From Nanobdellota archaeon (GTDB lineage Archaea > Nanobdellota > Nanobdellia > Woesearchaeales > WJIZ01), in the NCBI GenBank assembly GCA_023140175.1, contig JAGLMD010000053.1:1-33078 (forward strand): a stretch of DNA of 33,078 bases, given 5' to 3'. This document shows, in pieces, positions 5,679-32,950 of this stretch; position 1 is the stretch's first letter; the number at the start of each line of letters is the position of its first letter. Below the pieces are notes generated by a model. The model was given only the letters and a program-made list of their open reading frames with translations, had not been told where the DNA came from and ran no database searches. The translations under genes were made by a program, and so were the position numbers.

Positions 5679-7304
5679 TTACTTTTTCTTTGTAAGTAAG
5701 ACTACTATCAACACTATCAGCCCTATCAGAACTATTGCTGCAACTCCCAACAGTGCGATATAACCTATTGAACCCATAAAGCCCCCTTCCTCTACCTGAG
5801 CAATCACTGGGAACTGAGTGCCTGGTATGGTTGTATCGTCATCTTTAGGCGGCTCAATTATGATATCTACCCTATCATCTTCTTCATCTTCATCAGGTAT
5901 GTCTACTGGCGGCTTAGATACTGCACATTTCTCAACTGTCAAGATAACTGTTTCACTATAGTCCTGCTCTGGCCTTTTGGTCTCATCATAATAGACATCA
6001 ATTTCTATGATATAATCTCCAGGCTCAACATCGGCTGCATCAATCCTGATGCTTTCGGTATATTCTGAATCATCAACACCTTCATCAAGTTCTATATCTA
6101 TCTCTTCAAAATCCAATCCAAGGTCTAGATTAGTCACAGTTATTCTTACCTCGTCTTGATCATTTTTTCCAAGATTTAATATTTCAAGATCCAGTTCTGT
6201 TCTTCTATTGCAACTTACTATAGGAGATTTCAATCTAGCTTCCATTATCCTTACGTCATCCTTTTCTTTCTCTATCTCGAGCACATATTCTAATCTAATC
6301 TCAAAATCATTATTATTTTCATCTTCGCCTTCAACTAAGATTATAAAATCATATGTTGTACCATCATCATCAACTTTCCAGGGTATTTCAAGCTCTACCT
6401 TGAAATCTTCATCCTTATCAGCCTTAATATCATCAGTATCAGACTCCTCATCAATTTCATCGCCATCATCTATATCCTCTATTGTGACTGTTACCATGAC
6501 ATCTTCTATGTCAACCTCTTCATCACCATCACCACTATACAGATTTGCGATCTCGAGGTTTACTACTATCTTATCTCCTGGATGAGCTGGCTCGTCTATT
6601 TTATAGCTATCTGATTCACATGAATCATCATCACATATATTTTTGTCAGTGCTACTGCCTACCTTAATATCAAGGTCTGTTATCTGCAACTTAACATCCT
6701 CTCTTACAGTTATAGTTACACTATCCTGAGCTGAAAGGTCGCCATCATCAGTTACATTTAACTGGAAAACATATGTTCCTGCTTGTGCTGGTGTGAATGT
6801 AGGCTTTTGTGCAGCAGCGTTTGAAAGAGTTACTGTAGTGCCAGATGTCTGGCTCCATGTATAAGTCAAAGTGTCAAGGTCAAGATCTGAACTTCCTGAA
6901 CCATCAAGTGTTACAGTATCGTTAATATCAACTGTCTGGTCAGGGCCTGCATTTGCTGTAGGGGCTCTGTTTACGTTATTTACAGTTATTGTTGCGGTTG
7001 TGCTATTTGAGGAATTAGCATCTGAAACTGTAAGCAAGACAGTATATGTGCCTGCATCACCATAACCAGTAAGCCATTCAAATGTTGCAGTTGTGTTATC
7101 TTCATATGTTTTTGTTAATTGAGCAGTCATGTTAGTTATAAATGTTGAACTTCCATTGTCAGGAATAGTTGATGTAATGTTAAATACCAGAGTAGAAGTT
7201 TCATTTACAGAAAGTATTGTTGGTGCATTTATTATAACAGGATTTGCACTCACCAAACCCACAAGAAATAACACCAATATACTAAAAATAGTTAATTTTT
7301 TCAT
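5679..7304 (-). CDS. Membrane-anchored surface protein with PKD-like repeats and acidic adhesin module
   Basis: Signal peptide; NRAPTANAGPDQTVDINDTVTLDGSGSSDLDLDTLTYTWSQTSG PKD-like domain; C-terminal TM plus LLTKKK. Confidence 0.8.
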   Translation of the reverse strand: MKKLTIFSILVLFLVGLVSANPVIINAPTILSVNETSTLVFNITSTIPDNGSSTFITNMTAQLTKTYEDNTTATFEWLTGYGDAGTYTVLLTVSDANSSNSTTATITVNNVNRAPTANAGPDQTVDINDTVTLDGSGSSDLDLDTLTYTWSQTSGTTVTLSNAAAQKPTFTPAQAGTYVFQLNVTDDGDLSAQDSVTITVREDVKLQITDLDIKVGSSTDKNICDDDSCESDSYKIDEPAHPGDKIVVNLEIANLYSGDGDEEVDIEDVMVTVTIEDIDDGDEIDEESDTDDIKADKDEDFKVELEIPWKVDDDGTTYDFIILVEGEDENNNDFEIRLEYVLEIEKEKDDVRIMEARLKSPIVSCNRRTELDLEILNLGKNDQDEVRITVTNLDLGLDFEEIDIELDEGVDDSEYTESIRIDAADVEPGDYIIEIDVYYDETKRPEQDYSETVILTVEKCAVSKPPVDIPDEDEEDDRVDIIIEPPKDDDTTIPGTQFPVIAQVEEGGFMGSIGYIALLGVAAIVLIGLIVLIVVLLTKKK

Positions 7305-7398
7305 TTTTTAAATCCCCCATGTTTATAGATTATTGTAATTATATAGTGAAAATAATTATAGCTTTATAAATTTTTCTATTTTATAGTAGTTAAAAATG

Positions 7399-8493
7399 TT
7401 ACTTTTTTAGGATTATGAAAGCTGCACCAACTGCAAAAATAACTAAGCCCAAGAGCAGGATAAATGCTATTGCCAGAACAAGTGTATATTCATCAGTTTG
7501 GGCAAAGTTTATTCTGTCTTTCTTAACTACTTTAGCAGCTATAGGCTGACTGTTTTCAGATTCAGCTTTAGACTCCGGTGTATATACATTTGTAATCACT
7601 TCTTTTGTCTCTTCCGGCTTTTCCTCTTGCTTTGGTTTTGGTTTAGCTTTTTTCTTACATTCATCAATCTCTAATTCAACATATTTTGATACTAAGTTGT
7701 TATCATATTCAACTATAAAATCAATCTGATGTGTTCCCTGTACAAGCTCCGGAGCTAATCTTACAGAATCACTGTAGTCATCATTCTCATCAAGCTCTAT
7801 GCTTTTTTTATAGTTAAGGTTTAGTTGTTCATTTATTATCCTGATTAATGGTCTTTCATCCTCTTTTCCAATATTCATAATATTATAATCCAGTTTGATA
7901 TTATTGCTGCATGTTAATAAAGAAGGCGATATAGTCAAACTTCCTATTATTATCTCATGCCTGTTTTTCTTGAATTCTATCTCTCCTAACTCATTTTTTG
8001 CAGTATACTCTCCTTCTGTGTCTTTACCTTTTCCTTTGACTTCGACAATTATATTATAAGAATCTCCGTGCTCAACATCATAAGGCATTATGAAAGTGAA
8101 TTTAATCTGTTCTGAATCACCCTCTTCCAGATCAAAATTATCGTCATCTTCTATATCATTGCCGCCATCATCTTCCAGGCCATCAAATTCAACAGTGATA
8201 TCAATATCTTCAATGTCTTCTCCTGCATTATTCTTTACTTTAATCTTTACTGTAACCTCTTCGCCTGGCTCTGGTCTTGATGGTGAAACTTTTATTGATA
8301 TTATTGCCAATAAATCTAAATCTTCTTCCTCAATAGTACCAGAATCTGGAGGAGGTGCAACAACAGCTGCTTCTTCTTCAGCAGGGCAAAAGTCAGGATC
8401 TCCAAAAAAAGGGTCGCTTGGTACACATATTGAATCTGCATAAATAGAAATAGCAAAAAGTATCATAACTAGTGAAATTATTATTTTTTTCAT
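7399..8493 (-). CDS. Membrane-anchored surface protein sharing the acidic Ig-like module
   Basis: Signal peptide; PSLLTCSNNIKLDYNIMNIGKEDERPLIRI; C-terminal TM; start overlaps the stop of the upstream gene by 4 bp. Confidence 0.78.
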   Translation of the reverse strand: MKKIIISLVMILFAISIYADSICVPSDPFFGDPDFCPAEEEAAVVAPPPDSGTIEEEDLDLLAIISIKVSPSRPEPGEEVTVKIKVKNNAGEDIEDIDITVEFDGLEDDGGNDIEDDDNFDLEEGDSEQIKFTFIMPYDVEHGDSYNIIVEVKGKGKDTEGEYTAKNELGEIEFKKNRHEIIIGSLTISPSLLTCSNNIKLDYNIMNIGKEDERPLIRIINEQLNLNYKKSIELDENDDYSDSVRLAPELVQGTHQIDFIVEYDNNLVSKYVELEIDECKKKAKPKPKQEEKPEETKEVITNVYTPESKAESENSQPIAAKVVKKDRINFAQTDEYTLVLAIAFILLLGLVIFAVGAAFIILKK

Positions 8494-10241
8494 TTTTTCC
8501 TACTGAGAATCAATAAGATTACTATTAATGCTATTACAACTAAAAGACCAGTAAACAATAAAACAGTATAAGTATCAGATTGTCTGAAATCTTTTATGGA
8601 TCTTATAACTGGCATGCCTGTAATTGAAGGAGAATCTGAAATCTCTACTTTTGGCTTTTGCATGGGAATAATTGTCTCTTCTTTTTCCTCTGGCTGTTCT
8701 TCTTCAGGCTCTGGCTCTGGTTCAGGCTCTGGGGTTGGTTCAGGCTCTGGTTCTGGAGTTGGTTCAGGTTGAGATTGTCCACATTCTGTTATAACCAGAT
8801 TCAAGCCAGATACTTGCTCTAAGATATCGAAATTACGATATATTCTAAGCTCGATAGGATATGTCCCTGGTGAAGGATTCTGTAATGTAATCGGTATATT
8901 TTCCCTGTATTTGTTATCATCATTATCTGTATCATATTCTATCTCAAACCTGCTTTTCTCATAATTAATCCCTAAATCAGAATTTTTTAATGTATACCTG
9001 ACATAATCCTCATCATCTTTTCCAAGATTGATAATCTCAAAATCTGCGACTGTCTTTAATGTGCAGCTTAACTGGCTGGGATTAAGCCTAAAATCATTTA
9101 TAATCAATTCATGGCTTTCTCTTCCCACTTTCAATTGGATTGTCCAGGCTATATCATAATCATTATCTTCATCATCTGTTCCTATAATTCTTATCTCAAT
9201 GTCATAAGTATCATCTAGTACGTCAATAGGCACATCAAAATCAAATTCAAATGTATGCCTTTTATCATTGCCTTCAAAATCAAGGTCAAACGACTCACTG
9301 GTGAATTCAAGGTCTTCATCATCCTCGTCTATTCCAAAGACAATTATTTCGACTTCGACATCATTTATCTCGATTTCCTGATTAGCTTCTTCGTCCCAAA
9401 GATTTTCAACTTCAATATCAAGTTCTATCCTGCTTAGAGGCTCTGCTTTTTCATCTATCTCTTCTCCGTCATTATTTATTGTCTGTGTTTCAGAGTCTAC
9501 TTTCACCCTTACTTTCTTAAGGTTAAGGTAGCTCATTACATCAAGTATGAAGAAATCTGAAAATGTCTCTGAACCTATTGTCAAATCTCCAATGATCATA
9601 TTTTCTTCAGTATCCTCCCCAAATGGGACAGATACCGTAACATCTATGTCTATGCTTTGGCCTGGAGCTAAAGAATCTATTGAATCAGGATCAAAATCAA
9701 GATCATATTTGCTATTTGCATTGCTGCTTATTCCTAAATTGCTTAGATTTACATTTCCGTTATTTGTGATAGTAAAGCTGTCTGAGCCAGTCTCATTATA
9801 GAATAATTCACCGAAGTCTATTGCAGTTCTGTCTAGAGTAAAGCTTTCTTTAGGATTTAATGTAAGAGTTATATCATAAGTTTCGGTGTTGCTTTCATTA
9901 TCAGTTATATCGAAAGAGCCTGTATAAGAACCGGCATACATAGTTGAAGGAAGATTTGAGCTTTCAAAGCTTATTGGTGCAGTCTCATTAAAAGGTATAG
10001 TTACAGTTGACGGGCTGAAAGTTACTGAAACAGTCCTTTGATCTTCTGAACTGGTAAGATTAATTTCTGTTGGAAAAACAAAGCTTATATTAGTTGTTCC
10101 TGTGTTGTTTATAAGAAAGCTTGAACTTAATTTTTCTCCCTGGTCTTTAGTAAAGGTTTCAGAATCCGGACTTATATCAAAACCAGCAGCTACAAAAGAA
10201 ACATAAAATAATAATATTAGGGTAAGTAGGATTTTCTTCAT
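8490..10241 (-). CDS. Membrane-anchored surface protein with ASH/Ig-like N-terminus and PEPEP stalk
   Basis: Signal peptide; PSQLSCTLKTVADFEIINLGKDDEDYVRYTLKNSDLGINY module; QPEPTPEPEPEPTPEPEPEPEPEEE linker; C-terminal TM plus SRKK. Confidence 0.8.
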   Translation of the reverse strand: MKKILLTLILLFYVSFVAAGFDISPDSETFTKDQGEKLSSSFLINNTGTTNISFVFPTEINLTSSEDQRTVSVTFSPSTVTIPFNETAPISFESSNLPSTMYAGSYTGSFDITDNESNTETYDITLTLNPKESFTLDRTAIDFGELFYNETGSDSFTITNNGNVNLSNLGISSNANSKYDLDFDPDSIDSLAPGQSIDIDVTVSVPFGEDTEENMIIGDLTIGSETFSDFFILDVMSYLNLKKVRVKVDSETQTINNDGEEIDEKAEPLSRIELDIEVENLWDEEANQEIEINDVEVEIIVFGIDEDDEDLEFTSESFDLDFEGNDKRHTFEFDFDVPIDVLDDTYDIEIRIIGTDDEDNDYDIAWTIQLKVGRESHELIINDFRLNPSQLSCTLKTVADFEIINLGKDDEDYVRYTLKNSDLGINYEKSRFEIEYDTDNDDNKYRENIPITLQNPSPGTYPIELRIYRNFDILEQVSGLNLVITECGQSQPEPTPEPEPEPTPEPEPEPEPEEEQPEEKEETIIPMQKPKVEISDSPSITGMPVIRSIKDFRQSDTYTVLLFTGLLVVIALIVILLILSRKK

Positions 10242-32546: not shown

Positions 32547-32762
32547 TTAAATTTTTATAATTTTAAATCTTTTATTTTTCTTAGCTTTTGTAATATTGAA
32601 GCTTCCTTCTGCAAGCTTTGATGTCTTTAAAGCATATTCTTTAGCTTTATCTTCTGTTGAGAAAGTTTTTGCACTGTTCTTTCCTTCGACATTTCTAAAT
32701 CTCCCTTTTCTTGAAGAGGTTATCCCTAATTTTCTTTTAATTCTTGTATGTATTCTTGGCAT
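32547..32762 (-). CDS. Small very basic protein, possibly ribosome/nucleic-acid associated
   Basis: 71 aa, MPRIHTRIKRKLGITSSRKGRFRNVEGKNSAKTF, very K/R rich; tatatatt and ggtga upstream. Confidence 0.6.
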   Translation of the reverse strand: MPRIHTRIKRKLGITSSRKGRFRNVEGKNSAKTFSTEDKAKEYALKTSKLAEGSFNITKAKKNKRFKIIKI

Positions 32763-32804
32763 TTGATTTTCACCTTTAGTTGAATATATATGGGCCCTAG
32801 GGGA

Positions 32805-32823
32805 CTTTCGAGCTATAAAGCAT
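32805..32823 (-). other. tRNA intron 2 (19 nt, T-loop, between positions 59 and 60)
   Basis: ATGCTTTATAGCTCGAAAG; BHB: central helix TTCG:CGAA, bulges AAA and AGT. Excision restores canonical T-loop TTCGAAT. Confidence 0.85.
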
Positions 32824-32864
32824 TTCGAACCCCCGACCCCTCGCTTAAGAGGCGAGTGCTCTAA

Positions 32865-32896
32865 TTGCCCGCTAGCTTGCTATAAGCAAGCAGACG
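32865..32896 (-). other. tRNA intron 1 (32 nt, D-loop, between positions 19 and 20)
   Basis: CGTCTGCTTGCTTATAGCAAGCTAGCGGGCAA; BHB: central helix GCCT:GGGC, 3-nt bulges GGC and AAT, inner stem GCTTGC:GCAAGC. Excision restores AGCCTGGTTA D-loop. Confidence 0.85.
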
Positions 32897-32942
32897 CCAG
32901 GCTGAGCTAAGAGCCCATGAAAGATTATGAGTTTAGAAATGG

Positions 32943-32950
32943 TTTATAAA
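32943..32950 (-). promoter_or_regulatory. TATA box of the tRNA-Lys gene
   Basis: TTTATAAA centred about 30 bp upstream of the mature tRNA 5' end. Confidence 0.65.

Follow-up and report, generated by a model that had tools for sequence, protein, structure and literature searches.

A tRNA-Lys(CUU) gene from a Woesearchaeota-type archaeon with two probable BHB-type introns at sites interrupted across its order

Crenarchaea offer the best-documented cases of introns at the tRNA elbow, which the literature ties to splicing endonucleases with special loops or extra subunits. Positions 1 to 33,078 of contig JAGLMD010000053.1 (assembly GCA_023140175.1), referred to here as the window, come from a Woesearchaeota-type DPANN archaeon, and the minus strand of positions 32791-32916 carries a tRNA-Lys(CUU) gene interrupted in both the D-loop and the T-loop, with the sequence and coordinates given in the initial annotation. 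The locus raises the question of whether a tRNA gene broken twice at the elbow is functional and, if so, which enzyme would splice its transcript. The features concerned, in the order in which they are read on the minus strand, are:

32943..32950, minus strand: perfect TATA-like box TTTATAAA, at -34 from nucleotide 1
32897..32916, minus strand: exon 1 of tRNA-Lys(CUU), nt 1-19 (acceptor 5' strand, D-stem, D-loop to GG)
32865..32896, minus strand: intron 1, 32 nt, D-loop 19/20; its 3' end GGGC pairs with exon GCCT
32824..32864, minus strand: exon 2 (D-stem 3' strand, anticodon arm CTCGC-CTCTTAA-GCGAG, variable loop, T-stem 5' strand, TTCGAA)
32805..32823, minus strand: intron 2, 19 nt, T-loop 59/60; CGAA pairs with exon TTCG
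32791..32804, minus strand: exon 3 (T60, T-stem 3' strand, acceptor 3' strand, discriminator A73)
32550..32762, minus strand: ORF for a 71-aa basic protein, just downstream of the tRNA and also found near tRNA-Lys(CUU) in a genome of the same genus

Excision of 32896-32865 and 32823-32805 leaves a 75-nt cloverleaf with anticodon CUU, a 7-bp acceptor arm and D-, anticodon and T-arms, and position 37/38 is uninterrupted, as had been described. Each insert has alternative joints of equal or near-equal score when pairing alone is considered; comparison decided for the joints of the initial annotation, as only they yield the loops found uninterrupted (AGCCTGGTTA and TTCGAAT) in the tRNA-Lys(CUU) of the other same-genus genome compared (L024 of G001). 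That gene reads GGGCTCTTAGCTCAGCCTGGTTAGAGC...GGTTCGAATCCCCTAGGGCCCA, which corresponds exactly to the proposed exons, so that both the two-intron reading and the textbook 75-nt product were borne out. The description of the joints as bulge-helix-bulge (BHB) structures stood in part: the central helices GCCT:GGGC (with one G-U pair) and TTCG:CGAA are present, but neither insert has a complete hBHBh' structure, intron 1 having a single outer stacked pair and intron 2 no inner pair adjoining the bulge. Since relaxed forms belong to the BHB family (PMC6379350), we still count both introns as members. Intron 1 also contains an inner hairpin (GCTTGCT/AGCAAGC).

Interruptions of this kind are frequent in the same genome. 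At least 11 of about 30 tRNA genes read, or about a third, have an intron outside 37/38, and five have two introns; this census, drawn from searches and stretches, is incomplete, and two genes that the script could not resolve (L126 and L128) were left out of the non-canonical count. In addition to the window gene, D-loop introns were found in L010, L015, L127 Gly(CCC) and L139 Arg(TCG), and T-loop introns at 59/60 in L097 Ala(GGC), an Ile(TAT)-like gene of contig C183, L019 Phe(GAA) and the Asp(GTC) gene of contig C49, the last read by eye. Other positions were 32/33 (L017) and 28/29 (L098). By a simple stacking count, a complete hBHBh' was present in 6 of the 23 introns of the other tRNA genes.

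The relatives compared belong to an order that comprises over 80 families. In a separate sample of 44 tRNA-Lys genes from 60 genomes of this order, 30 had introns, 15 had them outside 37/38 and 10 had at least two; these genes were located by the anticodon arm (L104 was read by eye), which makes the sample blind to D- and T-loop inserts. Introns in both loops occurred together in the window gene and in four tRNA-Lys(UUU) genes from other members of the order (L075, L079, L083 and L092, the last a triple). The orthologous tRNA-Lys(CUU) L253 (G326:C45:6770-7070) has three introns, at D 19/20, 37/38 and T 59/60, and thus shares both interrupted sites with the window gene. The exact D-loop motif AGCTYAGYCTGG...GGGCAATNAGAG was present in 11 of 288 genomes, the other 10 also belonging to the order, with none in the reversed-pattern control; most genes read at these matches were Ile(TAT)-like or Met-like, and one, L253, was a Lys(CUU). 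A loose T-loop pattern, GTTCGAA-N(4,34)-CGAAARTC, was searched in 279 genomes together with its reversed control; a tally of the resulting table gave about 119 against 98 in the order and 23 against 24 outside it. As the control was nearly as frequent, the pattern was not used as a count, and only tRNA-framed cases were considered. On these gene sequences, the double interruption is ordinary for the lineage, and the earlier view of it as an isolated oddity outside Thermoproteales does not hold, because the same two sites are interrupted in many tRNAs across the host's order.

Intron ends vary together with the exons that they face. In independent genes, D-loop exon GCCT is partnered by an intron 3' end GGGC or AGGC, GTCC by GGAC, and GCTT by GAGC or AAGC, and T-loop exon TTCG is partnered by CGAA and TTCA by TGAA. 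Watson-Crick pairs accounted for 33 of 40 positions at the D-loop and 48 of 52 at the T-loop, values reached in 8 and 7 of 20,000 exon shuffles, respectively, in a test that leans in favour of pairing since BHB pairing contributed to the score by which the joints were partly picked. At the T-loop, the exon consensus leaves the joint little freedom.

We consider it highly probable (about 0.93) that this tRNA-Lys(CUU) gene is functional, exists as a single copy and carries two archaeal BHB-type introns, both removable, at two hot spots of the lineage. These hot spots would be the near-invariant D-loop GCCTGG and T-loop TTCGAA, which would supply half of each central helix. Transcription of the pre-tRNA would presumably be directed by the TATA-like box. 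Most tRNA-Lys(CUU) genes in the order have a similar box, near -32 to -38. The four bulge sites would then be cut by the single EndA of the genome, acting alone as a homotetramer, and the exons joined by RtcB, for which one gene is present.

The genome has the splicing endonuclease gene that this reading calls for: one EndA of 194 aa, encoded at L022:1474-2058 on the minus strand. It has both an N- and a C-terminal domain, carries the family's conserved Tyr, His and Lys residues and is 58-78% identical to EndAs from metagenome bins whose titles name Woesearchaeota or Nanoarchaeota. A search with PF01974 at a permissive E-value gave a single convincing EndA per genome in all 30 genomes covered (the host and 29 relatives), with no second subunit or three-unit fusion; the whole domain was matched in 29 of them, in open frames of 175-246 codons, and only part of it in G012. 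The protein lacks a CSL-type loop, the insertion of the crenarchaeal Sulfolobus tokodaii enzyme (2cv8) being missing, as well as the NEQ205 insertion before the catalytic His, and the 25 sequences of the order that were aligned show a short loop region of nearly constant length. Its predicted structure has a mean pLDDT of 69.7, with a poor C-terminal half. With one gene per genome, about 180-210 aa, both domains, the catalytic Tyr/His/Lys and no CSL-type loop, EndA looks like an alpha4 enzyme by the published scheme, and not like an alpha2beta2 or epsilon2 one. Such an architecture has been described as narrow in specificity (PMC6379350), and efficient removal of relaxed motifs is attributed to (alpha-beta)2 and epsilon2 enzymes alone (PMC6379350, PMC12397907). 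The initial annotation had proposed that a broad-specificity endonuclease would be required, and the short alpha4-type EndA of this genome, as far as sequence can tell, does not support that claim. This mismatch between mostly relaxed introns and an alpha4-looking EndA is the most interesting residue of the analysis: either EndA may be broad without a known loop, or it may have an unrecognised partner, or the stacking criterion may be too strict.

The second of these options would make the enzyme (alpha-beta)2-like and broad, a divergent beta subunit pairing with EndA as in Nanoarchaeum equitans. The closest solved relative of EndA by sequence is indeed the N. equitans catalytic subunit (3iey_A), and a strongly diverged beta subunit could escape searches. 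However, each of the 30 genomes yielded a single convincing EndA, the protein keeps its own N-terminal domain, with the NEQ205 match spanning only residues 58-194, and this one EndA sequence still finds the N. equitans beta subunit at 1e-12. We therefore regard a hidden partner as unlikely. Returning to a lone EndA, we suggest tentatively, and at somewhat less than even odds, that throughout the order non-canonical tRNA introns are abundant, mostly relaxed and removed by a loop-less single-subunit enzyme. In this DPANN order, introns occupy the same pair of elbow sites in several isotypes, and the only EndA seen in its genomes is short and loop-less. If such an enzyme suffices, it would contradict the proposed rule by which introns of this kind have co-evolved with (alpha-beta)2 or epsilon2 enzymes that carry CSL or ASL loops, and would represent a third way to broad specificity.

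A different objection concerns the gene rather than the enzyme: the two insertions might have disabled the tRNA, leaving a decaying pseudogene while another gene does the work. Standard tRNA finders do miss the locus, ARAGORN and the Rfam scan at gathering threshold each giving 0 matches in the window, because the inserts defeat them, and the whole-genome Rfam tRNA scan recovered the gene only as a weak match (21.3 bits). tRNA gene counts obtained with standard finders will be too low in such genomes. However, the exons are identical to those of the same-genus L024 at 71 of 75 positions, including the whole of exon 1, and both sides of pair 27-43 account for two of the four differences, a compensatory change from C-G to A-T that suggests selection on the stem. 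L024 carries instead a 14-nt intron that fits 37/38, and intron content has therefore changed within one genus. No second tRNA-Lys(CUU) was found in the 184 contigs of this fragmented MAG, in a gap of which a copy could lie; an apparent tRNA-Lys(UUU), which follows a tRNA-Asp where contig C49 breaks off, seems to be a separate gene with a D-loop uninterrupted as far as it extends. A second tRNA-Lys(CUU) was rejected within these contigs, and conserved exons, the compensatory change, the single copy, the TATA-like box and the recurrence of these intron sites in many other tRNAs of the genome together make decay very improbable. That the BHB-like pairing is coincidental and the inserts assembly artefacts of a single MAG window is scarcely credible, both 4-bp central helices having arisen in only 0.05% of trials with the inserts shuffled in place and the same sites and end motifs recurring in many independent genomes.

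The gene belongs to a kind already known, since non-canonical positions and multiple introns are established in several archaea. Crenarchaeota have non-canonical introns at positions including 20/21 and 59/60, with up to three per tRNA, and Nanoarchaeota are also named there as rich in them (PMC4090602); such introns are also established in Thaumarchaeota (PMC8450103) and Asgard archaea (PMC11291895). No paper describing tRNA introns of Woesearchaeota was found in the open-access literature searched. The genes show a close likeness to those of Thermoproteales (Pyrobaculum), with at most three introns per tRNA at positions that include 20/21 and 59/60, BHB joints in which exon sequence is reused and similar introns in different tRNAs (PMC4090602). 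In contrast, the present host is a DPANN archaeon with a single short EndA devoid of the crenarchaeal loop, and its genome contains no second copy of intron 1 within 3 mismatches and no evident near copy of intron 2; a recent intra-genome copy or translocation was rejected for intron 1 on this basis. N. equitans belongs to the same broad archaeal group and shares non-canonical BHB processing, but has two subunits and split tRNAs, whereas EndA here is one subunit with its own N-terminal domain. The Asgard Atabeyarchaeia and Freyarchaeia, in which many tRNAs have several non-canonical introns (PMC11291895), are unrelated to the host and resemble it in intron richness. ARMAN-2 is likewise an ultrasmall archaeon with non-canonical introns, but its epsilon2 EndA is a three-unit protein of 390 aa with an ARMAN-specific loop, unlike any EndA in the 30 genomes.

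Shared introns resembling those reported for Thermoproteales (PMC4090602) were found in two relatives. In G133, from another order of the class, closely similar T-loop introns occur in one Arg and two Leu tRNAs (L238, L239 and L240), which suggests transfer between isotypes, and in G262, from the host's order, two Gln tRNAs carry the same T-loop intron.

The 71-aa basic protein had no Pfam or NCBIfam match and was found in 14 of the 99 genomes searched. Around the tRNA, the segment 18164-32762 of the window contains a lysine/aspartate-family set (aspartate kinase, DapA, DapB, LysA and an LL-DAP-aminotransferase-like protein) as well as an archaeal lysine--tRNA ligase. Elsewhere in the genome, the tRNA-Asp(GTC) gene L243 (G000:C49:1-400), with apparent introns at 37/38 and 59/60, lies directly before the cut-off tRNA-Lys(UUU), and a similar order was seen in G050. 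The 36-kb contig G000:C163 has four tRNA-like genes (L001, L016, L020 and L133), some of which read as intron-free and are of odd sequence, and is possibly a mobile element or virus. Finally, three consecutive, apparently secreted and membrane-anchored proteins of similar layout are encoded on the minus strand of the window at 5679-10241 and are probably paralogues.
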